From NCBI GenBank assembly GCA_016178705.1, contig JACOST010000011.1:1-64000 (forward strand): a stretch of DNA of 64,000 nucleotides. The letters are read 5' to 3'. The notes beneath the pieces were generated by a model. The model did not search any database. It saw nothing but the letters and a program-made list of their open reading frames with translations, and had not been told where the DNA came from. Below are positions 41,116-54,188 of the stretch, piece by piece. Position 1 is the first letter of the stretch, and each line of letters starts with the position of its first letter. Position numbers and translations under genes: made by a program. This stretch comes from Deltaproteobacteria bacterium (GTDB taxonomy: Bacteria; Desulfobacterota; Binatia; HRBIN30; JACQVA1).

Positions 41116-41478
41116 ATGCCTGAGCATGCGCCGGCTGCCGTAGCAGCCTCTTTTCAACTCTGCCTGGATGACGATGAGATCTGTCGCCGTGGTCCGATCC
41201 CGGTTTCTGTGTCCTCTCTGTCGGGGTCGGGACTGGCCGTACTTATGTTGAAGAACCAGCCTCCCGTGCTCAATCCGTCCGACCTCATGTCGCACGGAGG
41301 CGAGGGACGTCCGCTCCGGCTCACCGCGCGCATAGGTGGGCGGTCGATCGCGCTCACAGCGCAGCTCGTGTGGTCTGAGCTGGCAGGTAGCGCGGATGAC
41401 GAGGTGGAATTGATCATTGATGCCACCGGCGTCAGCGACTGGCCCGCAATTGTGGCGGCGTACCGCGGAGCGGTGTGA
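41116..41478 (+). CDS. Small protein, possibly PilZ-like, coupled to coiled-coil gene
   Basis: About 120 residues from the ATG at 41116 (ATG at 41071 is an alternative). The sequence is beta-rich: FQLCLDDDEICRRGPIPVSV, SSLSGSGLAVLML, PLRLTARIGGRSIALTAQLV, EVELIIDATGVSDW. This resembles the beta-barrel layout of PilZ-type domains, but the RxxxR and D/NxSxxG c-di-GMP motifs are not clearly present. The stop overlaps the next start (TGATG), so the two proteins are probably made in fixed ratio. The function is unknown. Confidence 0.45.
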   Translation: MPEHAPAAVAASFQLCLDDDEICRRGPIPVSVSSLSGSGLAVLMLKNQPPVLNPSDLMSHGGEGRPLRLTARIGGRSIALTAQLVWSELAGSADDEVELIIDATGVSDWPAIVAAYRGAV

Positions 41479-44400
41479 TGGCGTGGGGACTGCGACTCGC
41501 CCGCAAACGCGCGGATGCAGCTCCGGATTCGCCGCCCCGAGAAGAAGAGGGCGCATCCCAGCCAGTAGCGGGGCCGCCACCGCCTGCGGTCGCTGAACGT
41601 CCGGCGCCCCCCGTACCGACCCAATCGATCGGTGGCAGTCTCAACAGCGTGCGCCAACGCTTGCTCGATCTCTACGGGCAGCGGCTGGCGCGCGAGGACT
41701 TCGCGGCACAAGCGATCGACCTGATCACGAAGGCGCTGGGCGCGCCCGCGGGAGCACTACTCGCCTACGAGCAACGTCGCGATCGGTTGGTGCTCATCGC
41801 CGATGTCGGTCTCAGTGCGCCAGCGGCCGATGTCCTGGGTCGCGGCGCCAGCGGCCCAACCTGGGACATTCCGATGCGCGGCCTCACCAACCGTCGCATC
41901 AGCGTGATCGAGGCCGCGCACCAGAATCCATTCGTGCCGCGTCCGCTGATCGAGATCAGTCCACGCCGTCTGGCGATCGCCACGTTGCCGTTCTTCCACG
42001 GCTACACTCCCGCGGGCGTGTTGGTGCTGTTTGCGAACAAGCCGCATGGCTTCACCGACGTGCAGCTGCAAGCGGTAGGGCAGGCGTTGAAGGTGTGCGG
42101 CATCGCATTCGCCGAGCTGCCGCACTCGGACAGTGCGGCGTCGCCGGTCAGCCCTGCCGCACCTTCCGCGCCAACGCAGGCGGCGGCTCCTGCTGCGTCA
42201 TCTCCGCTCGCGGACAAACAACGCGCCGTCGATGCCCAAGAGCTCCATCGCTTGCGGCAAGCGTTCGATGAGTCGTTGTGGCAACACGCGAAAGAGTTGG
42301 CCGAGACCCGCCGCGCTGCGGCCACTGCGCTCGAAGCCGAGCGCGAGAAGTTTTCCACCGTTGGTGCCGCCCTCGCCAATCTCGAGACTGAACGTGACCG
42401 CCTCGCCAGCCAGTTGTCGGCGGCGCGCGGTGAACTCGCCACGCTGGCCGATACCCGCGGCGCGCTCGACACTAACCGCGCGGAAGCCCAGCGCCTGCAC
42501 ACCGCGCTCGCCGCGGCCAACGCCGAGGTTGAACGCACCACGCTCGGCTTGCACGAAATGCAGCGCGCGCATGACGACTTGGTCGAGCGTCACGAAGCGG
42601 CGGTGCGGCAACACAGCGAGCACACGCAGGCTGATGCCACCGAACGCGACCGCGCGGCAGGCACAATTGCGGCGCTGCGCGAACGCTTGGCGGGCATCGA
42701 GGCCGAGCACGCCGCGCTGCGCCAGCTCACCGACGCGCTGCAGGCAACCCACGAGCAGGTGGTCGTGCAACTACAAGCCATGCAGGTGCGCGCGGCAACG
42801 CTGCAGGAACAGCTCGCCAGCCGCACCGTGGCGTTCGATACCCTCGATGCCCAGCAGACGGAGCTGCGCATCGTGTACGACGCCTTGGTGGAACGCGCCG
42901 AAGCCGCGCAGCAGACCACGACGCGGTTGCAGCAGCGGCTCGACGAGCAAGGCACCACCTGGCTGCGCGAACGCACCAGCCTGCACGAGGAACTCAAGCG
43001 CGCCGTCGATGCCGCCGATACCTTCCGCCGCACCGTCGAGTCGGTCTCCGGTGAGCGCGATAGTCACGCGGCAGCGGCAAAGCTGGCCGAAACCCGCTTG
43101 GCGCAGATCGAGAAGACGCTCGCCGAGGTCCGCGCCGCGCACACCGCCGCGCTCGCCGACGTCCAGCAGGACCGTCAGCGCTTGCTCGGCGAGCTGCGGA
43201 TGTGGGGCGAGCGCGAACCCGCCTGGTCTTCCCAGTTGAAAGAGGCGGGTGCCCGCGCCGAGGCCGCGGATGCCGAGCGCGCCCGCACCGCCGAAGCGCT
43301 CAGCCGCCTCCAGCGCGAGCATCAGCAGAGCATCGTCGACACCAGCGGACAGATCGAAACCTTGCAAAACTGGGTCGAGCGAGTGCGCGCGCAGCACGCG
43401 GAGTTGGAGGCGCGGCACGGGGCTCTTGAGGCGGCCCGCGCGGTTGTCCAGAGCGATCGCGACCAACTCGACGCTCTCTGTCAATCGCTCCGAACCGAGC
43501 AGCAGCGCCTCGTGAGCGATCGCGACAGTGCCCTCGCCACCCGCGACCACCGCATCACCGAGCTGCAGGCGCAACTGGGCGAGGTGCAGACGCGCTTTGA
43601 GCAGGACACCAGTGCGAAATCGTCCTCCGCCAAGCGGCTGGCGAAGGAGCGCGATGCGCTAGTGGCCGCGCGACGCGAGTTGGAAGCGGCGCTGGCCGAA
43701 CAAACCGCGCGCGCACAACAGCTCGACGCCGACTTGTCCGCCGCGACTGCGCGCCACACCGGACAACGCACGGAGTTCGATCAAGCCAGCGCGCGCCATG
43801 AACACGAGGCCGCAGCGTTGCGCCAGCAGCTCGCCGAAACCCAGGCTACGCTCGAGGCGATTCGCCGCGACCGCGACAGTACGGTTGTCGATCGAAGCGT
43901 GACCGCCGATGCGGCGGGCCGCTTGCAACGCGACGTCGATCATCTGCGCGCCGAGTTGGCCGCCGCTTCCGACACCCTGGCCCAGCACCGTGCCGACAGC
44001 GTCGCCACCGAGGCGCACCGTCGCGTCGAACTTGACGCCTTGCAGAACGAGCTGACCGCCACGCGTACGCAGATGGCCGAGCGTGACCGCGACCTCGTCG
44101 GCGTCCGCGGTGAGCTGGCGCAGCTCACCGACGCCGCGGACCAGGAACGCTCGGTTCATCGCGGCGAGTTGGAGCGACTCACCAGTGGGTGGGAAGCCGA
44201 GCGCATCTCATTGAGCTCTCGCGCCGAGGAATTAGAGGCCGAACTCGAGCGGACCCGCAAGGAGCACCTCGCCCTCGCCGAGGCGCTGGCGGTCGACGAG
44301 AGTCAACCGGCCCTCGAAATCGAACGCCACGTCATCCCCGGGATCGACACCGCCGGCGAGCCGGCGCTCGATGAGAGTCTCGATGACGCTGAAGAAGAGT

Positions 44401-45230
44401 CGGAAGCCACCGCCGAACTCGAGCTGGTGCCGCGAGCGCTCGCGGTGATCGATGGTGAGCTACGCGCCGCGATGGTCGCTGGCTTAGCCGATACGGGTTG
44501 GGAGATTGTTGACTGTGAACCGACTGAAGATGCAATCAGTCAGTTGGCGGCGCAGCGTTTGGCGGGTGTTGCTATCAACGTGATGGCCGGCAGCGGCTGG
44601 CAATTGGTGCGCAACCTGCGCGAGCAGGATGCGACCCGCGACGTGCCATTGCTGCTGTACGCCAAGCAGACGGCGTCCGCCGGCTTCTGCTTCGGTCCGG
44701 CGGATTGTGTGCTGTGGCCGAACGAGCCGCAGCAGTTGCTCGACGCGTTGGCGCGACTGGTGCCGCGGGCGAAGCGCGTGCTTGCGATGAGCACGGATAT
44801 CGATGTGGTCGGCTCGGTGCGCGAGCAACTGACTGGGGCCGGGCTGTCTGCGGCGGTCATGCTCGACGGCAAGCAAGCGCTTGATCTGTTGCCGAGTGTG
44901 CGGCCCGACGCTGTCGTGTTGCACCTGTCGCCGGCGTGCGTCGACATCTTCCGCACGATCGCGGGGCTGCGCGCGAACGGTGCGGCGCCACTGCCGGTGG
45001 TGCTGCTCATGGATCGCGTGCCGACGGCGCGCGACGCCACCTTCCTCACCGGCGGCACGCGCACGCTTGCCAACAAGGGAACCTTCGGTCCAGCGGTGCT
45101 CGCCGATGCGGTGGCTCACCTCATGCCCGCCATGACCGGCGGCAGCGCCCCTGCCGACGAACCGCCCGAGCGGGTCGAGGCGCCTCGACGCCCGGTTGCC
45201 ATCGGCGCATCCGACGGCTGGGTGGGCTAG
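41478..45230 (+). CDS. GAF / long coiled-coil / double pseudo-receiver protein
   Basis: 1250 residues, no membrane segment. A GAF-like domain (about 55-210: FAAQAIDLITKALGAPAGAL, then LAIATLPFFHGYTPAGVLVL) is followed by a Pro/Ala linker. About 690 residues of continuous coiled coil come next (heptads rich in A, L, E, R, Q). After an acidic linker there are two receiver-like domains. In the first (about 985-1095) the strand that should end in the phosphoacceptor aspartate reads GVAINVMAGSGW, with Asn. In the second (about 1097-1220) it reads DAVVLHLSPACVD, with His. Both are therefore pseudo-receivers. The layout recalls coiled-coil polarity or gliding regulators such as FrzS, in different order. 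The function is unknown; a scaffold that senses a small ligand through GAF is plausible. Confidence 0.75.
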   Translation: MAWGLRLARKRADAAPDSPPREEEGASQPVAGPPPPAVAERPAPPVPTQSIGGSLNSVRQRLLDLYGQRLAREDFAAQAIDLITKALGAPAGALLAYEQRRDRLVLIADVGLSAPAADVLGRGASGPTWDIPMRGLTNRRISVIEAAHQNPFVPRPLIEISPRRLAIATLPFFHGYTPAGVLVLFANKPHGFTDVQLQAVGQALKVCGIAFAELPHSDSAASPVSPAAPSAPTQAAAPAASSPLADKQRAVDAQELHRLRQAFDESLWQHAKELAETRRAAATALEAEREKFSTVGAALANLETERDRLASQLSAARGELATLADTRGALDTNRAEAQRLHTALAAANAEVERTTLGLHEMQRAHDDLVERHEAAVRQHSEHTQADATERDRAAGTIAALRERLAGIEAEHAALRQLTDALQATHEQVVVQLQAMQVRAATLQEQLASRTVAFDTLDAQQTELRIVYDALVERAEAAQQTTTRLQQRLDEQGTTWLRERTSLHEELKRAVDAADTFRRTVESVSGERDSHAAAAKLAETRLAQIEKTLAEVRAAHTAALADVQQDRQRLLGELRMWGEREPAWSSQLKEAGARAEAADAERARTAEALSRLQREHQQSIVDTSGQIETLQNWVERVRAQHAELEARHGALEAARAVVQSDRDQLDALCQSLRTEQQRLVSDRDSALATRDHRITELQAQLGEVQTRFEQDTSAKSSSAKRLAKERDALVAARRELEAALAEQTARAQQLDADLSAATARHTGQRTEFDQASARHEHEAAALRQQLAETQATLEAIRRDRDSTVVDRSVTADAAGRLQRDVDHLRAELAAASDTLAQHRADSVATEAHRRVELDALQNELTATRTQMAERDRDLVGVRGELAQLTDAADQERSVHRGELERLTSGWEAERISLSSRAEELEAELERTRKEHLALAEALAVDESQPALEIERHVIPGIDTAGEPALDESLDDAEEESEATAELELVPRALAVIDGELRAAMVAGLADTGWEIVDCEPTEDAISQLAAQRLAGVAINVMAGSGWQLVRNLREQDATRDVPLLLYAKQTASAGFCFGPADCVLWPNEPQQLLDALARLVPRAKRVLAMSTDIDVVGSVREQLTGAGLSAAVMLDGKQALDLLPSVRPDAVVLHLSPACVDIFRTIAGLRANGAAPLPVVLLMDRVPTARDATFLTGGTRTLANKGTFGPAVLADAVAHLMPAMTGGSAPADEPPERVEAPRRPVAIGASDGWVG

Positions 45231-45242
45231 TCTCGCCGAATT

Positions 45243-46739
45243 CTACTTCCGACTCTGCAGCGCCACACGCGCCGCTTCGCGATCGTCGAAGTGCACGCGG
45301 CGATCCGCGAACAACTGATACGTCTCGTGACCCTTGCCGGCGATCACTACCAGATCGCCGCGCTGCGCGAGATGAATGGCGAGGGTGATCGCGGCGGCGC
45401 GATCAGGTTCAGCGCGATAGCGCTGCGCGTCGGGATCCACCGCGGCCGCGCCGCCCACGACCTCGGCGACGATGGCGGCCGCATCCTCCGAACGCGGATT
45501 GTCGGAAGTCACAATCACGAGATCGCTGAGCCGCGCAGCGATGCGGCCCATTAGTGGGCGTTTACCGCGATCGCGATCGCCGCCGCAGCCGAACACGGTG
45601 ATGAGCCGCGCCGGTTTGAGCGTGCGCGCGCTGGTGAGCAACCGTTCAAGCGCGTCCGGCTTGTGCGCGTAGTCGACCACCACACCGAAATCCTGGCCGC
45701 AATCGACAAGCTCGAAGCGCCCCGGTACCGGCGGCGCTGCCGCCAGACCGTCGCGCACGTGGTCCAACGAAATGCCAAGCGCCAGCCCCGTACCCGCCGC
45801 TGCCAGCGCGTTGTAGACGCTGTACTCGCCCAAGTGGCGCAGCGCGACGTCGAGCGGACCGGCGGGAGTGTCGGCGCGGAAGCTGACGCCGCGCAACGTC
45901 ATCGCGACGTGACGCGCGCGCACCTGCGCGTCGGCGTGGGTGCCGTAGGTGAGCAGCTTGCCGCGGTTGACGCGGATGATGTGCGCGCTCGCCGGATCGT
46001 CGATGTTCACCACCGCGGTGGCGGGCTTGCCGCCGCTTTCGAGTTCTTCGAACAGCCGGCCCTTGGCGCGCAAGTAGTGGTGCATGTCGGGGTGAAAGTT
46101 GAGATGATCCTGGCTCAGATTGGTGAACACGCCCACATCGAAGGCGACGCCGGCGGCCCGCCGCAGCTCGAGCGCGTGCGACGACACTTCCATCACCGCG
46201 GCGGTTGCGCCGCGATCGACCGCCGTGCGCAACAGCCGCTGCAGTTCGGGCGCTTCCGGCGTCGTCTGCGCTGCCGGCAGCACCTCATCGCCGATCCGAT
46301 ACTCCACCGTGCCGAGCCGCGCGGTCACGTGGCCCGCGGTGCGCAACACCGAGTCGATGAAATACGTCGTCGACGTTTTGCCCGAAGTGCCGGTGACGCC
46401 AATCATCTGCAGCGCGTGCGACGGCTGGCCGAAAAACCGACAAGCCATGGCGGCGATCGCCGCCCAACAATCCTCGACGCGCACGATGGAGACGCCGGAT
46501 ATGGGCGCCATATCGCGACTGACTACGAGCGCCGCGGCCCCGCGCGCAACGGCTGTCGTAATGAAGTTGTGACGATCAGCGCGAGTCTCGCCGCCCTCGG
46601 TGCGATAGCCGGGGAGGCAGACGAACACATCGCCGGGCTCGACCGTGCGCGAGTCCGACACGATGCGTCGCACATCAACCGCGAGCGACCCGTGCTGTGC
46701 GAGCGCGGTAACGTCAGCGAGGAGAGATGCGAGTTGCAT
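45243..46739 (-). CDS. murE: UDP-MurNAc-tripeptide synthetase (meso-diaminopimelate adding)
   Basis: 498 residues. MurE adds the third residue of the peptidoglycan stem. The ATP loop is MIGVTGTSGKTSTTYF. TTPEAPELQRLL and VMEVSSHALELRR are substrate-site motifs, FTNLSQDHLNFH is the family box with the carbamylated-lysine neighbourhood further on, and TSDNPRSED is the DNPR motif that selects meso-diaminopimelate. The gene is far from any mur/fts cluster in this window and convergent with the coiled-coil gene, 12 bases apart. Confidence 0.95.
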   Translation of the reverse strand: MQLASLLADVTALAQHGSLAVDVRRIVSDSRTVEPGDVFVCLPGYRTEGGETRADRHNFITTAVARGAAALVVSRDMAPISGVSIVRVEDCWAAIAAMACRFFGQPSHALQMIGVTGTSGKTSTTYFIDSVLRTAGHVTARLGTVEYRIGDEVLPAAQTTPEAPELQRLLRTAVDRGATAAVMEVSSHALELRRAAGVAFDVGVFTNLSQDHLNFHPDMHHYLRAKGRLFEELESGGKPATAVVNIDDPASAHIIRVNRGKLLTYGTHADAQVRARHVAMTLRGVSFRADTPAGPLDVALRHLGEYSVYNALAAAGTGLALGISLDHVRDGLAAAPPVPGRFELVDCGQDFGVVVDYAHKPDALERLLTSARTLKPARLITVFGCGGDRDRGKRPLMGRIAARLSDLVIVTSDNPRSEDAAAIVAEVVGGAAAVDPDAQRYRAEPDRAAAITLAIHLAQRGDLVVIAGKGHETYQLFADRRVHFDDREAARVALQSRK

Positions 46740-46798
46740 GACGACGGGAGTGAGGTGGTGCGATCACGCGCCGACCCGGGTTACACCCGAGTCACGAG

Positions 46799-47257
46799 TC
46801 ACGAACTGCGCAACTTCGCCGCGATGGCGGGCACGGCCTTGAGCAGCATGTCGAGCCGAGCCATTTCGCTGCCGAGCGCGGCCGCAAGCGCTTGTTCGTA
46901 CGCCGTCAGCGCGCTGTCGAGGTCGGCACTCTTGTCTGGCTTGATCCCGTCGTGCTCGTCGAGGCAGGCGTTGATGGCTTCAGCGAGCTGTTCGAGGTTC
47001 TTCTCGCCTTCCTCGCCGAGTTTCTTGTTGAGTGTCTCCGTCCAGATCGCGTGGAACGCGTATGTCGCTGGAGCCTGGCGGCGTAGTCCGGCAGTCAGCA
47101 TGTAGATCTGGTCGGCGAGCTTGGTAGGCGAGGCCACCTTGATCCGCGTCACCAAGCCGTTGAGGCGGAGGAACTTGTCACGCAGGCGTTGCAGCCCCAT
47201 CTCGTCAGACAGGGCCGTGATCGCTTGAGTGAACTCGCTGGCGGTGAGGGCGGCCAT
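46799..47257 (-). CDS. Helical hypothetical protein
   Basis: About 152 residues if started at the ATG at 47257. It is all-helical and soluble: FTQAITALSDEMGLQRLRDK, FLRLNGLVTRIKVASPTKLA, NLEQLAEAINACLDEHDGI, LTAYEQALAAALGSEMARLD. No domain is recognised. An in-frame start further upstream (47368) would run through the perfect hairpin at 47301-47331, so the shorter version is preferred. It lies 59 bases upstream of murE in the same direction. Confidence 0.5.
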   Translation of the reverse strand: MAALTASEFTQAITALSDEMGLQRLRDKFLRLNGLVTRIKVASPTKLADQIYMLTAGLRRQAPATYAFHAIWTETLNKKLGEEGEKNLEQLAEAINACLDEHDGIKPDKSADLDSALTAYEQALAAALGSEMARLDMLLKAVPAIAAKLRSS

Positions 47258-47350: not shown

Positions 47351-48637
47351 ATGCTGAGATGTATGCACGCGAGGAGACGGTGGCTGGCGATGCTGGTTGC
47401 CGTGGCGCTACCGCTCGCGGCGTCGGCGGCTGATCTTGCGTCTTGGCAGCACGGCGGAGTGCTGCGCGTCGGCACCACTGGCGACTATGCGCCATTCAGC
47501 ACGGCGCAGGGCGAATCGCTGGCGGGACTCGACGTCGATCTGATGACGCGTCTGGCGCACGATCTCGGCGCGACGGTGCAACTCGTGCGCTTTCGTTGGC
47601 CAGATCTCAGCGATGATTTGGCGCAGGGCAAGTTCGACGTTGTCGCCAGCGGCGTAACGGTGCGACCCGAGCGGGCGCTGATCGGCCGCTACAGCCGGCC
47701 CTATGCGAATACCGGGGCCGTGGCCCTGATTCGCAGCGAAGACGCCGCGCGCCTGACCGACCGTGCAGCGATCGATCGCACCGGCGTGCGCATCGCGGTC
47801 AATCGCGGTGGTCATCTCGAACAGGTGGCGCATCGGTTGTTCCCGCGCGCCACCATCGAGCCGGTGAGCGACAACACCGAGTTGCCCGGCCGTGTGTTGG
47901 TGGGGCGCGCCGACGTCGCGCTCAGCGACAGCGCCGAGGCCCGCGCCTGGCAACGGCCCGAGCTGCACACGGTGGGGCCCTTCACCCGCGATCGCAAAGC
48001 GCTGCTGGTCCGCAAGGACGCGCCCGAGCTGGCGCAATGGATCGACACCTGGCTGCGCGACCGCGAGCGCGACGGCTGGCTCGGCGCTCGCCGCAAGCAG
48101 TGGCTGGGCGACGCGATGTTTGCCGCCGCTGGCGCCGATCGCGAAGCGGTGTTGTGCGACATCGAGCTGCGTTGCCAACTCATGCCGATGGTCGCCGCCA
48201 GCAAACGCGCGAGCGGCGTGCCCATCGCCGATCCGGCGCAAGAGCAACGCGTACTCGATCGTGTCCAGGCCACCGCGCGCGCAACCGGAATCGACGCGGG
48301 TGAAGTCGCCCGCCTCTTCAGCGTCTTGATCCGAGCCGCGAAGATGATTCAGGAAGCCAGCGGCACCGATCCGCACGCACCGGCGCCGCCGCTCGATCAG
48401 CTGCGATCGGCCATCGGCGACATCGACACCCACATGATCCGCCAACTGCACTTCGCCGCGCGCACAGTGAAGCCAGCCGAGTGGCGAGCCGGTGTGCGCG
48501 AGGGCGTGCAGGCCGACAACTTGAGCGACGCACTCAAGGCAGACATCGCCGAGTCGCTGGCGCACACGCGCACGCTCATTGCTCCGGGTCTGAACGAGAC
48601 GCCGAAGCGCAAGCGACCGACCGCGTCGGGAAAGTGA
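47351..48637 (+). CDS. Periplasmic cyclohexadienyl dehydratase-chorismate mutase fusion (PheC-AroQ)
   Basis: 428 residues. A signal peptide (LAMLVAVALPLAASAA, cut near residue 26) is followed by a solute-binding-protein family 3 domain (about 36-260) of the PheC type: GVLRVGTTGDYAPFS, GLDVDLMTRLAHDLG, FDVVASGVTVRPER, and NRGGHLEQVA with the glutamate found in PheC. The C-terminal part (about 275-400) is an AroQ-type chorismate mutase: ELRCQLMPMVAASKRASGVP, IADPAQEQRVLDRVQATA, LFSVLIRAAKMIQE. Together they could turn chorismate to prephenate and then phenylpyruvate in the periplasm. An amino-acid-binding role for the first domain is the main alternative. It stands alone. Confidence 0.7.
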   Translation: MLRCMHARRRWLAMLVAVALPLAASAADLASWQHGGVLRVGTTGDYAPFSTAQGESLAGLDVDLMTRLAHDLGATVQLVRFRWPDLSDDLAQGKFDVVASGVTVRPERALIGRYSRPYANTGAVALIRSEDAARLTDRAAIDRTGVRIAVNRGGHLEQVAHRLFPRATIEPVSDNTELPGRVLVGRADVALSDSAEARAWQRPELHTVGPFTRDRKALLVRKDAPELAQWIDTWLRDRERDGWLGARRKQWLGDAMFAAAGADREAVLCDIELRCQLMPMVAASKRASGVPIADPAQEQRVLDRVQATARATGIDAGEVARLFSVLIRAAKMIQEASGTDPHAPAPPLDQLRSAIGDIDTHMIRQLHFAARTVKPAEWRAGVREGVQADNLSDALKADIAESLAHTRTLIAPGLNETPKRKRPTASGK

Positions 48638-48696: not shown

Positions 48697-49320
48697 ATGG
48701 CAACGGCATACGAGACGCGGTTGCGCGAGTCATTCGACGCCACGTTGCGCGAAGCGAGCGAGTTCTTCATGGGCCGCGGCGATCTCCGCGCCACGATGAA
48801 GCGTCTCGCCGAACGCTTCGCCGCCGAAGGCATCGCCTACGCGGTGATCGGCGGGATGGCGTTGGGTGAGCACGGTTACGTCCGCATGACTGACGACGTG
48901 GACATCTTGGTGACACAGAATGGGCTGGAGCGATTCGCCGAGCAGTGCGTCGGGCTCGGCTATGCGCCGACGCACGTTGGTGCCGAGCGTGCCTTTCGCG
49001 ATGTCGAAACGGAGGTCCGGATCAAAGTTTGGGTCGCCGGCGAGTATCCCGGCGATGGCAAACCGAAGCCGGTCATGTTTCCGGACCCGTCGACCGTTGC
49101 GATCGAAGCAGCAGGCATCCGAGTAGTGAGTCTCCCTCGACTGATCGAGTTGAAACTCGCATCAGGGATGACCGCGCCGGATCGTTTGCGCGACCTAGCC
49201 GATGTTCAAGAACTGATTCGCGCCGAAGCGCTCGACGAGAAGTTCGCCGAGCAACTCGATGAAAGCGTCCGCTCCAAGTTCTCCGAGCTAGCGCGGGCGA
49301 CGAATCGCCCGTTGCGATAA
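48697..49320 (+). CDS. Nucleotidyltransferase-fold protein (AbiEii/MNT-like)
   Basis: 207 residues. The N-terminal half has the nucleotidyltransferase signature: YAVIGGMALGEHGYVRMT, then DDVDILV with the paired metal aspartates. VEVVSLPRLIELKL-type sequence (IRVVSLPRLIELKLASGM) and RLRDLADVQELI follow, as in AbiEii-like and DUF6036-type proteins. Such proteins often act in toxin-antitoxin or defence modules, but no partner gene is adjacent. A promoter-like sequence lies just upstream. Confidence 0.7.
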   Translation: MATAYETRLRESFDATLREASEFFMGRGDLRATMKRLAERFAAEGIAYAVIGGMALGEHGYVRMTDDVDILVTQNGLERFAEQCVGLGYAPTHVGAERAFRDVETEVRIKVWVAGEYPGDGKPKPVMFPDPSTVAIEAAGIRVVSLPRLIELKLASGMTAPDRLRDLADVQELIRAEALDEKFAEQLDESVRSKFSELARATNRPLR

Positions 49321-50645: not shown

Positions 50646-51089
50646 CTAGTGTGAGGACGATTGATCAGCGCTCGTGTGCTCGGCCCACCGGGCGAGGATG
50701 CTGCGTTCTGCGTCGGTCAAGCGCGCGCTCCGATGCAGCACGCGATAGTGCCACGGCGCCATGTCGCCGCTCGCGACCAGGTTCCCAATTTCGCTGAGCT
50801 TCTGCGCTGCGGTGTCGGGATCGGAGGCATACTCACTCCACTCGGAAAAATTCAGCCGGCGGCGGCCCTCGGTCACGTCGTGATGAACCATCCACGAAGT
50901 CGGCGCGACGGCGCTGTACCACGACCACTCGGTTTCGTTGGAATGGCAGTCGTAGCACGCGCGCCGCAGGAGGGCCTTGACTTCGACCGGCGCGACGAGG
51001 TCGCTGGCGACGGGTGGATTCGTTCGTGCGAAACGAACGCATTGCACCACGACCAAAACCCCGCCGACCAGCATGGCGATCCTTCGCAT
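50646..51089 (-). CDS. Small membrane-anchored c-type heme protein (Haem_bd domain)
   Basis: 147 residues with an N-terminal membrane segment (AMLVGGVLVVVQCVRFA). The single heme site CYDCH lies in LLRRACYDCHSNETEWSWYS, followed by VAPTSWMVHHDVTEGRRRLN and FSEWSEY, and MAPWHYRVLHRSARLTDAER further on. This is the heme-binding domain pattern of PF14376-type proteins. It should be periplasmic and could pass electrons to the cytochrome-FTR1 fusion. It is 33 bases from the cupredoxin gene. Confidence 0.75.
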   Translation of the reverse strand: MRRIAMLVGGVLVVVQCVRFARTNPPVASDLVAPVEVKALLRRACYDCHSNETEWSWYSAVAPTSWMVHHDVTEGRRRLNFSEWSEYASDPDTAAQKLSEIGNLVASGDMAPWHYRVLHRSARLTDAERSILARWAEHTSADQSSSH

Positions 51090-51122: not shown

Positions 51123-51458
51123 CTACTTCGCAATGATCGCGCCCGGCGGCGTGTCGCGGTGGAAGTCGTCGAAGAACGGATAGCTCCCCGGTTCCAGCGC
51201 CGGGATGAAGACCGTAATGGTCTCACCCGGCTGCACGACACGCTCGCGATGCAGCTCGAAGCTTTCGAACTCAACGGCGCTGGTGTCAGCGTTGGTGACA
51301 TGGAGCTTGAAGGCCGCGCGTGCCGGCACGGCCAACTGCGATGGTTCAAATCGACCGTTCTGGAGCTTGATTTCAGGCGGCGCGTCCTGCGCGCGGACAA
51401 CGGATGCCGCCAGTGAAATCGCCGCACTGGCGACAAGGACGATAAAGGGCGTGTTCAT
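51123..51458 (-). CDS. Periplasmic cupredoxin-domain protein
   Basis: 111 residues from the ATG at 51458. After a signal peptide (VLVASAAISLAASVVRAQ) comes a short cupredoxin-like beta domain: EIKLQNGRFEPSQLAVPARA, AFKLHVTNADTSAVEFESFE, LEPGSYPFFDDFHRDTPPG. The usual CxxxHxxM copper loop is missing: YPFFDDFHRDTPPG keeps a histidine but has no cysteine, so type 1 copper is unlikely. Proteins of this sort accompany FTR1 permeases and may bind iron or copper. A Fur-box-like sequence lies just upstream. Confidence 0.75.
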   Translation of the reverse strand: MNTPFIVLVASAAISLAASVVRAQDAPPEIKLQNGRFEPSQLAVPARAAFKLHVTNADTSAVEFESFELHRERVVQPGETITVFIPALEPGSYPFFDDFHRDTPPGAIIAK

Positions 51459-51479
51459 CAAACGGACCTTTCTGTATTT

Positions 51480-51498
51480 GAGAATGAATGTCGTTATC
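51480..51498. promoter_or_regulatory. Fur-box-like sequence before the cupredoxin gene
   Basis: GAGAATGAATGTCGTTATC matches the classical 19-bp Fur box GATAATGATAATCATTATC at 14 of 19 positions (counted by eye). It lies 21 bases before the cupredoxin start and after the permease stop, so the downstream genes may have their own iron-controlled promoter. Fur itself is encoded at 54459-54929. Confidence 0.5.
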
Positions 51499-51545
51499 GC
51501 AATGTATTGGCGATCCTGCCAAACTTGGCCGACGATCGACATCGT

Positions 51546-54188
51546 TCAGTGGCCGACCACCTTGCCGGCGCGCGCCGGCAGATCGAGCTGGATTTGTCCT
51601 TCGAGACGCGCGACGCGTTCGATCAGCGTGTCGAGCTGCTGGCCTGGATCTGCAGGCGCGATTGCGTCTGCCACTGATCGCTGGGCCAACTCGGCGCGAA
51701 TCGAGATCGCGAGTTGATGGAGGCTGCGCACCTCCGCAAGCAGCGTGTCCGCCGGAGAGAGCAGCGGCCGGCGCCGGCGCCAGATGACGACGCCGGCATA
51801 GAGCATGAAGAGAACGAAGATGCCCTGCGCGAGCAGCGTCTCGACTGTCGGATACAATCCGAGCAAGTCGATACGGGGCACGCCGGCCACCGGCGTCACC
51901 GCGATCCAGCTGGTCTCTTGCAACTCGGCGATGCCATTGCCCGCAAACACGATCGCCATGTAGTAGAGGAGAAAGCTGGTGCCGAGAAAGAATTGACGGA
52001 TCGGGATTTTCATTCCGAACCGTTGCAACACCGCCGACACCATCGCCAAGGCAACCGCGCCGGCGATTAGTCCGCCGACCACGATGCTGGCATCGGACGC
52101 GGCGCCGAACAGCGCTTGATAGAACAGCACCGTCTCGACGCCTTCGCGGTATACCGCCAGGAACGCCGCGCCGGCGAGGGCGAAGCCGCTCCCGGTGGAC
52201 AGTGCGGTCTTCACCTTGCCTTGAATGAAGCGCTGCCACTTGTCGGCCTCGGCCTTCGACACCAACCAATAGCTCACCCAGAACAGTACGACCGCGGCGA
52301 GCAGCATCGTGCAGCCGCCCAGCGTCTCCGCGGCGGCAGTCGACGTGCCGTGGAGCACCTCCACGAAGATGAATGCGGTCACCAGACTCAGCGCGATGCC
52401 GGTGATCGTGCCGCCCCAGATCGATCGCTGCATCCGCGCGTTGCCGGACTTCTTCACATACGCGAGCAACGCTGTGATGATCAGAACGATCTCGAAGCCC
52501 TCGCGCAGAATGATGGTCGCCGACTGCAGGAACAGAGCATACGGATTGGCATGCGGCGCGAGTGCGGCGTGCGCTGTCTCGAGATCAGTACCGATGGCGG
52601 CGACGATGACGGCCGCCCCTTCGGTGGCGCCCGGTGCGGCAAGCACGCCGCGGAGTTCGAGGAAGCGGGTCTCCACCTGACGGGTGAGGTCGGGTGCGTT
52701 GATGGCGAGCTTCTTCTCAAAGGGCTCGAACTTGAAATACGCGTCCGACACCAGCGACAGCGCTTGCGGATCATTGCCTCGATACGCCGCCAGGGCCGAC
52801 GCGAGCAGGCGGCGGGTTTCGCCGAATGGGTCCGAGGAGATCGCAGCGGCCGCTGGCGCGGCGTCGGTCGGGAGCGAGGCGACGATCGCGTCGACCAGCT
52901 TCGCCACATCGGCGGCTGGCGCGCGCTGGTGCACCAGCGAGGTCAACTCGATCGCTTGCTTCGGGAACGCATCGCTCACCGCCGGCGCACTCGACTGCAC
53001 CGCGGCGGCCACGGTGGAAATCGCGGCGTTGATCTGACCGAGCAGCACTTCGCTCTCAGTGAGATCCTGCGGACTGACGATCCGACCGGCATCAACGGCC
53101 TTTGCGTACTCAGCGCTCAACAATCGCAGGAGTCGACCGAATCGTCCGAACTGTGGCGTGCCGCCGCCACCTGAACCCGCACCGGCGCCGCCGTCGGGTC
53201 CGCCGAGCGACAATGCACGCACGAACGCGATGGTCTTCCAGCGTTCATCGTCGGTGAGATTCCCGAACGCCGGCATGGCCGTGCCCGCCACCCCATCGTG
53301 CACGGCGTCGAACAATTCGGCGTCGGTACGGCGGGCCAGTCGCGCCGGTTGAGTGAAGTTCGGCGCGGGTGTCAGAAGAGTGGAAGCGAGCGGGCCGGTA
53401 CCGTCACCGATGGCGCCGTGGCAACTCGCGCACTGACTGAGGTAGAGGCCTTGCCCTTCGGCGAGTTCACCGCGGCGGTGCGCCAAGCGCCACACGTAGC
53501 TGAGGACATCCCAGCGCTCTTGCAGCGTGAGCACGTCTTCCCACGCGGGCATCGCCGCGCCGCGTTTGCCGACGCTGATGACGTGAATGTGATCGAAGAC
53601 CGTCTCGCCGCGCATGAACCCGGCGTCGGTGAAGTTGGCGGGCTTGCGTTCCAGCCGTGCGGCGTCGGGACCGTGCCCGTCGCCGTGCTCACCGTGGCAT
53701 GATGCGCAGTGCTCGTAAAAGATCGCCGCGCCACGCTGCGGTGATGGCGATTGCGGTGGGAAGATGTCTTCGTCGATGCCGGTGGCGTGCGTTACCGCCG
53801 CGCGAATCGTGGCGACCTGCGCCAATACTGTATCGGCAGCCTGCTTCTCGTCGATCGCCGCGGTGAGATCCCCGAGTTGGCGAACGATCGTGTCACCGCC
53901 ATCGATTCCCGCGACATTGCCCCAGCGCATGCGCGCCTCGGCGAGGAAGCTGCGCGCTTCTTCATATTCCAGCGGACGGACGAGATGGCCGCGGCCATCG
54001 CAGCCTTCGCGGTATTCTTCGCCGACGACGGTGAGCAGGGTGAGGACACGCGTGACCCCGTCGGCGTCGACGGCAGCAAATGCGAGCGTGGGCAGGAAGA
54101 TCAGAGCGACGAGGAGCCGAGCGAACCGCTGCCCGGGTCGCCTGGGGTGGTGTTGCGTCTGCTGGTCGGCTCGCGTCTGCATGTCCAT
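51546..54188 (-). CDS. Diheme cytochrome c-FTR1 iron permease fusion
   Basis: 880 residues. A signal sequence (LLVALIFLPTLAFA) is followed by about 120 residues of unknown fold, then two cytochrome c domains with CASCH at 161-165 and 253-257; methionines in AAMPAWED and GTAMPAFGN are likely axial ligands. A helical linker region (350-550) leads to an FTR1 permease domain with REGFEIVLI and REGVETVLF, the REGxE motifs of iron transport, in seven or so membrane helices, and a coiled C-terminal tail. It should oxidise ferrous iron and import ferric iron, with the hemes as the electron route (inference). It heads a minus-strand cluster behind a Fur-box-like palindrome. Confidence 0.85.
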   Translation of the reverse strand: MDMQTRADQQTQHHPRRPGQRFARLLVALIFLPTLAFAAVDADGVTRVLTLLTVVGEEYREGCDGRGHLVRPLEYEEARSFLAEARMRWGNVAGIDGGDTIVRQLGDLTAAIDEKQAADTVLAQVATIRAAVTHATGIDEDIFPPQSPSPQRGAAIFYEHCASCHGEHGDGHGPDAARLERKPANFTDAGFMRGETVFDHIHVISVGKRGAAMPAWEDVLTLQERWDVLSYVWRLAHRRGELAEGQGLYLSQCASCHGAIGDGTGPLASTLLTPAPNFTQPARLARRTDAELFDAVHDGVAGTAMPAFGNLTDDERWKTIAFVRALSLGGPDGGAGAGSGGGGTPQFGRFGRLLRLLSAEYAKAVDAGRIVSPQDLTESEVLLGQINAAISTVAAAVQSSAPAVSDAFPKQAIELTSLVHQRAPAADVAKLVDAIVASLPTDAAPAAAAISSDPFGETRRLLASALAAYRGNDPQALSLVSDAYFKFEPFEKKLAINAPDLTRQVETRFLELRGVLAAPGATEGAAVIVAAIGTDLETAHAALAPHANPYALFLQSATIILREGFEIVLIITALLAYVKKSGNARMQRSIWGGTITGIALSLVTAFIFVEVLHGTSTAAAETLGGCTMLLAAVVLFWVSYWLVSKAEADKWQRFIQGKVKTALSTGSGFALAGAAFLAVYREGVETVLFYQALFGAASDASIVVGGLIAGAVALAMVSAVLQRFGMKIPIRQFFLGTSFLLYYMAIVFAGNGIAELQETSWIAVTPVAGVPRIDLLGLYPTVETLLAQGIFVLFMLYAGVVIWRRRRPLLSPADTLLAEVRSLHQLAISIRAELAQRSVADAIAPADPGQQLDTLIERVARLEGQIQLDLPARAGKVVGH

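Follow-up and report, generated by a model that had tools for sequence, protein, structure and literature searches.

The window analysed here is a stretch of 64,000 nucleotides from a Deltaproteobacteria bacterium of the class Binatia (contig JACOST010000011.1), and it contains a gene in which a cyclohexadienyl dehydratase (CDT, PheC-like) domain is followed by a chorismate mutase (CM) domain in one polypeptide (Table 1). The frame is open throughout, and Met5 (47363) is as plausible a start as Met1; the leader, MHARRRWLAMLVAVALPLAASA-AD, resembles a signal peptide when judged by eye. Both the SBP_bac_3 and the CM_2 matches (the latter covering residues 271-335, E 2.8e-10) lie above the curated Pfam cut-offs. 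The top sequence match in the PDB is the Janthinobacterium CDT-CM fusion 8cq4 (E 1.2e-43, aligned over 29-335), and 8cq6 (Duganella, by accession and Foldseek title) was also matched (E 1.1e-40). The initial annotation, which described one polypeptide with an export leader, a PheC-like domain and an AroQ-type CM, is thus borne out by the Pfam and PDB matches and by the leader. Compared with the nearest homologue (L004; 385 codons) dN/dS was 0.26, which suggests purifying selection on the frame. The CDT-CM fusion at this locus is real, far beyond chance.

Table 1 Features of the fusion gene and its divergent neighbour, with positions counted within the window
Feature	Position	Strand	Details
Divergent neighbour	46799..47257	-	152-155 aa; no Pfam family above cut-off
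CDT-CM fusion CDS	47351..48637	+	428 aa; Met1 47351; stop 48635-48637
Predicted signal peptide	47363..47428	+	MHARRRWLAMLVAVALPLAASA; residues 5-26, judged by eye
CDT (PheC-like) domain, SBP_bac_3	47462..48109	+	residues 38-253; Pfam E 1e-26
Y46	47486..47488	+	PaCDT Y22, retained
W83	47597..47599	+	PaCDT W60, retained
A123	47717..47719	+	PaCDT K100, lost
NRGGHLE (151-157)	47801..47821	+	PaCDT NPGGTNE (128-134); N128 retained; T132 to H155; N133 to L156
N175	47873..47875	+	PaCDT N152, retained
S192	47924..47926	+	PaCDT T169, conservative change
E196	47936..47938	+	PaCDT general acid E173, retained
W200	47948..47950	+	PaCDT Q177; neighbour affecting the E173 rotamer in PheC ancestors, per the accessible text of PMC7683729
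AroQ-gamma-like CM domain, helical	48134..48577	+	residues ~262-409; Pfam and AlphaFold2 model
CM catalytic residues	48170..48406	+	R274 K285 I292 D294 Q297 E298 V301 A330 K331 Q334 R352

An AlphaFold2 model of the protein had a pLDDT of 94.2 and a pTM of 0.91. The underlying alignment of 66 sequences (A2) consists of this protein and 65 of the 80 loci of the genome scan described below; it omits L038 (for an X in its sequence), L062 and L080 (on account of a motif regex), L045, L052, L061, L067 and L110 (by hand, some being cut or frame-broken), and L051, L058, L070, L072, L084, L091 and L092 (for a shorter list). In a Foldseek search with this model chains of 8cq6, followed by 8cq4, ranked first. 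Residues 1-226 of the model superpose on AncCDT-5 (6wup) at 1.7 A over 226 residues, and the CDT part superposes on PaCDT (3kbr) at 1.9 A, the span being 225-226 residues for the two structures. As a whole the model agreed with 8cq6 and 8cq4 only at ~23-24 A over 355-361 residues, which suggested a new domain arrangement; since a control model of a Duganella homologue (L111, 85% identity to 8cq6) also missed the crystal arrangement, by 14 A and with a pTM of 0.76, we dropped this claim.

The catalytic residues of the CM domain correspond, in the order of Table 1, to MtCM positions 49, 60, 67, 69, 72, 73, 76, 105, 106, 109 and 134 (i.e., R352 is the equivalent of R134). All 10 positions compared with the solved chorismate mutase 2gbb are identical; 2gbb, which we take to be an active enzyme, falls in our CM tree beside a protein that carries a gamma-subclass AroQ annotation. 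All 110 fusion rows of the survey below have R49 and E73, and 109 have K60. Position 72 is Gln in 39 of these rows and in 2gbb, and Arg in JbCDTCM and DsCDTCM; we considered loss of CM function through R72Q and rejected it because 2gbb has Gln at the same position. Like the AroQ-gamma enzymes 2gbb and MtCM (2FP2), the protein has a CM_2 domain with the equivalents of R49, K60, E73, Q109 and R134; unlike them, it is fused to a CDT domain, and its match to the AroQ-gamma profile TIGR01806 (70.1 bits) is below the cut-off of 74.15, which was not exceeded in any of 118 genomes of the class. The CM residues, whose absence would have spoken against the initial annotation, are therefore intact, and for this reason the domain very probably turns chorismate into prephenate.

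The dehydratase site presents a different picture. Taking the roles of site residues from the accessible text of PMC10520331 and PMC7683729, we found in an alignment to PaCDT that five of nine active-site residues are retained (Y22, W60, N128, N152 and E173) and four are replaced (K100A, T132H, N133L and T169S). The carboxylate ligands described for JbCDTCM are Ser107, Arg112 and Lys225 (accessible text of PMC10520331), T132 likewise contacting the carboxylate there, and from a numbering offset of 27 we infer that these are PaCDT positions 80, 85 and 198; R85 and K198 are retained here and S80 is replaced by Thr. C106 of PaCDT is S129 in this protein, and the second Cys is missing from the aligned segment of the PDB alignment, from which we also took which two PaCDT cysteines would form the disulfide. 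Relative to PheC (PaCDT 3KBR and 5HPQ; AncCDT-5 6WUP), the domain thus shares the fold together with Y22, W60, R85, N128, N152, E173 and K198, and differs in the four replacements, in Q177W and in the absence of C106.

To see this site in its relatives, we tabulated it in 110 loci, comprising 30 homologues (the fusion and its relatives L003-L032) and the best 80 of 522 confirmed stretches from a genome scan. We found a pattern with L/M133, H/Y132 and, where covered, A/V/P100 (henceforth H-type) in 101 of these loci and the complete published pattern (K100, T132 and N133) in nine (L097, L101, L102, L105, L107-L109, L111 and L112, belonging to Pseudomonadota and Verrucomicrobiota), a ratio that is skewed towards the H-type because the scan used one peptide pattern with GG[HY]LE beside one neutral pattern and the 30-locus set was collected by plain homology to this H-type protein, likewise favouring its own type. 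No intermediates between the two patterns were seen among the 110 loci, and N128, E134, N152 and E173 were present in all of them. As the two sets share contigs, further counts refer to 92 H-type rows that are distinct in their first 250 residues. Position 132 is His in 84 of these and Tyr in 8, position 177 is Trp in 73, Phe in 16 and Leu in 3, and K198 is retained in 89. Thr at position 80 (91 of 91 rows), Leu at 133 (91 of 92) and Asp at 196 (92 of 92) are nearly or fully invariant, and such conservation of replaced positions speaks for constraint, not decay. Asp196 is one of two new charged residues that the sequence places near the ligands R85 and K198, the other being Arg82 (86 distinct H-type rows); in 12 PheC or published-type rows position 196 is S, A or V and position 82 is T, S or N. 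Alignment A1 omits L013, L017, L030 and L032. In two genomes (L017 in G018; L030/L110 in G046) the CM part of the fusion gene is interrupted by stops or a frameshift, reflecting either assembly error or decay, and L016 has a stop upstream; all of these were left as found.

Under a lax rule a leader was recognised on all 99 H-type rows counted (L032 and L067, which are cut, were omitted), being lipobox-like in 46 and otherwise hydrophobic in 53; export thus looks general, and the mode of anchoring appears to vary.

We then asked from which side the first domain descends, using a tree of 65 CDT-fold domains (36 H-type, 7 monofunctional PheC-like, 11 published-type and 11 solute-binding proteins) built after dropping 14 of the 16 site columns that we had tabulated. 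The 36 H-type domains formed a single clade (100/99) on a long stem, sister to a clade of PheC and published-type domains (90/87) and so not within PheC, and published-type fusions nested among monofunctional PheC. H-type and PheC/published-type domains were set apart from the 11 binding proteins (88/83, below the starred level). N128 and N152 occur in none of the 11 binding-protein rows and are present in the 36 H-type and 7 monofunctional rows; E at position 173 is less telling, as it is also found in 3 of the 11 binding-protein rows. Considering the tree position and the lack of N128 and N152 in binding proteins, the first domain most likely comes from the dehydratase side: it groups with PheC and does not cluster with amino-acid-binding proteins, the outcome that would have told against the initial annotation. 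The CM tree separated a clade of H-type domains (94/95) from one of published-type domains (98/98), and a joint fusion clade was not rejected (p-AU 0.363), meaning that both one and two fusion events are compatible with the trees; both trees are chosen subsets (36 and 35 of the 101 H-type rows) in which the gamma CM-CDT enzymes are absent.

The idea of an exported PheC-CM fusion was published in outline in 2023 by Stocker et al. (PMC10520331), whose accessible text describes exported fusion enzymes of both orders, CM-CDT and CDT-CM, from nine beta/gamma-proteobacterial species, the CDT-first order being confined to beta-proteobacteria in that survey. According to the same text, the fusions conserve all nine PheC active-site residues, carry the CM substitutions V76, A/S105, K106 and Q109, and have both activities in vitro, with a CM Km <7 uM and no channelling; complementation in vivo was carried out as well, and the authors regard the fusions as extremely rare, leave their purpose open and suggest that they serve to sense chorismate set free by lysed cells. 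The main text of PMC10520331 contains no words beginning with Myxo, Deltaproteobacteria, Binat or metagenom, PMC12329711 merely cites it as far as its accessible text goes, and the open PMC literature, as judged by titles and abstract openings, plus the papers cited, yielded no account of the H-type. With JbCDTCM (8CQ4/8PNH) and DsCDTCM (8CQ6) the present protein shares the CDT-then-CM order in one chain, the export leader and V76, K106 and Q109 (here V301, K331 and Q334). By contrast, four of nine CDT site residues are replaced and the CDT cysteines are absent here, and the CM domain has A105 and Q72 in place of S and R. Its CDT domain is 38% identical to that of JbCDTCM and 36% to PaCDT, while JbCDTCM itself is 62% identical to PaCDT. 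Judged from these sequences, the H-type is a distinct and widespread branch of the published kind of fusion with a consistently altered dehydratase site.

Two further proteins came up in the survey. L191 (Pseudoalteromonas sp. NC201 plasmid pNC201, 1134417-1135725) encodes in one frame part of a prephenate dehydratase (PDT) domain and then a CM domain, i.e., the PDT-CM order (PF00800 profile 65-179, E 1.3e-11, the stretch starting inside the domain; PF01817, E 1.8e-11). L154 (Cetobacterium somerae plasmid p1, a Fusobacterium) is a monofunctional PheC-like protein with K100, T132, N133 and E173, with Tyr177 and without C106.

We lean towards reading the protein as an exported two-domain CDT-CM enzyme that would convert chorismate via prephenate into phenylpyruvate by way of a remodelled site. 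The C-terminal AroQ-gamma domain would form prephenate from chorismate outside the cytoplasm, and the N-terminal domain, as a descendant of cyclohexadienyl dehydratase, would remove water and CO2 to give phenylpyruvate, with the histidine at the T132 position assuming part of the role of T132 and K100. The substrate would be chorismate or prephenate present outside the cytoplasm, e.g., from lysed cells, as postulated in the accessible text of PMC10520331. Continued dehydration and decarboxylation of prephenate at the rebuilt site seems somewhat more probable than not, since N152 and E173, near the leaving group, and the ligands R85 and K198 remain. Against the dehydratase reading, three of nine PheC site residues are changed non-conservatively and a fourth conservatively, and position 177 is Trp here and Trp or Phe in most H-type rows, to be compared with the PheC ancestor in which a bulky Tyr177 holds E173 out of its working rotamer (accessible text of PMC7683729). 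The earlier proposal of phenylpyruvate synthesis from chorismate thus looks likely for its first step, and the catalytic residues compared with AroQ-gamma and PheC structures divide in the same way (10 of 10 CM positions against 2gbb, 5 of 9 in the CDT site); the CDT step is not secured.

If its CDT domain is active, the fusion would carry out the same two reactions as the P-protein (PheA). The P-protein is a cytoplasmic enzyme with an unrelated PDT fold and the opposite domain order. A cytoplasmic CM-prephenate dehydratase of this kind is encoded in the same genome (G000:C30:357282-358058, one 391-aa frame; an aminotransferase gene at 358465 comes after it), so the exported enzyme is probably not used for housekeeping phenylalanine synthesis.

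The replacement of K100, T132, N133 and Q177 in a domain of the solute-binding fold would also be expected if the first domain had partially returned to solute binding and were a non-catalytic domain that binds or senses prephenate fed by the CM (or chorismate). The 46 of 99 H-type rows that look like lipoproteins under our simple rule fit this reading, membrane-anchored receptors often being lipoproteins, and so does the occurrence of E173 in 3 of 11 binding-protein rows. Yet E173, N128 and N152 occur together in 110 of 110 fusion rows and in none of the 11 binding-protein rows, and, unlike amino-acid ABC solute-binding proteins, from which it is also separated in the tree, the fusion has no ABC permease or ATPase gene among the seven nearby ORFs scanned with Pfam. 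We thus regard a purely binding role as unlikely.

More doubtful still is a catalytic domain with a related but different reaction, acting on arogenate or another cyclohexadiene acid, whose product would not be phenylpyruvate. Here the coherent, clade-wide exchange of site residues, the conserved R82 and D196 near R85 and K198, and the branching of the H-type outside the sampled PheC-type sequences are set against the unaltered leaving-group residues and against the fused CM, which supplies prephenate. Nor did we see an exported aminotransferase that would make arogenate: by eye, no leader was present on the 9 best of 14 class I/II (PF00155) matches in the genome, so that the periplasmic aminotransferase looked for at the suggestion of the initial annotation did not turn up there. 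A wider version of this idea, which we put forward as an unlikely one, is that the H-type (NxGG[HY]LE) would be a separate enzyme class, i.e., an old, large lineage centred on Myxococcota and Binatia with a histidine-rebuilt site, fed by its CM in cis and having another product or substrate. Finally, that this is an ordinary published-type fusion with neutral site differences is improbable, for despite the published domain order, the V76/K106/Q109 signature, the export leader and the published enzymes as top matches, the latter retain all nine CDT residues (accessible text of PMC10520331), no intermediates occur in 110 rows and the 36 H-type domains form a separate, long-stemmed clade.

On the favoured reading of an exported CDT-CM enzyme, the H-type site may represent a second, naturally evolved form of the CDT active site, and would be useful as such because PheC is a model of an enzyme that evolved from a binding protein. 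Its distribution changes the 2023 picture of rarity into that of a common exported shikimate-pathway enzyme. Specifically, single matches spanning both domains (query start <=60, end >=300) were found in 40 of 148 genomes of the class Binatia, two of which have stop codons inside the fusion gene, and partial matches in four more (G046, G050, G064 and G107) were taken as the same gene. Many Myxococcota records carry it as well: among the best 80 of 522 scan stretches there were 71 H-type loci, of which 52 are Myxococcota (by NCBI ranks, including records titled Deltaproteobacteria), 5 Pseudomonadota, 2 Candidatus Binatota, 1 each Spirochaetota, Bacteroidota and Verrucomicrobiota, and 9 unplaced. 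Named hosts include Archangium lansinium, Hyalangium versicolor and Sorangium cellulosum So ce26 (L099), which offers these three genera for genetics. Speculatively, an enzyme that uses or senses chorismate set free by lysed cells would suit myxobacteria as predators.

The genes around the fusion loci gave no clue to a pathway, neighbours being lineage-specific. Among the best 80 of 522 scan loci the commonest neighbours, named by eye, were cold-shock-like (40 loci) and NAD-synthetase-like (38) genes, counted in the 77 loci in which a simple gene caller recognised the fusion (all except L065, L085 and L088). At the present locus the seven nearby ORFs scanned with Pfam comprise a MurE-like, a nucleotidyltransferase, a haem-binding and a GAF protein (below cut-off) and three without a family. 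The divergent 155-aa gene stands beside the fusion in 18 loci (phmmer; own and duplicate contigs counted), all from genomes of this bacterium's order; we rejected it as a functional partner, as this restriction points to lineage synteny and evidence of a shared pathway was not seen. Positions 41475-47257 of the window encode the 155-aa protein, a MurE-like ligase and a large protein that matches GAF weakly, and these recur beside the fusion within this bacterium's taxonomic order, the ligase in 17 loci and the large protein in 4 (duplicates counted). Just downstream of the fusion, at 48697-49320 (+), lies a lone nucleotidyltransferase (NTP_transf_5 / AbiEii-like), for which phmmer found no match in the other neighbourhood loci compared. 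Further along, at 51546-54188 (-), cytochrome-c-like domains are fused to an FTR1 iron permease, and a cupredoxin and a haem-binding protein (51123-51542 and 50646-51089, both -) adjoin it in what looks like an iron-uptake cluster.
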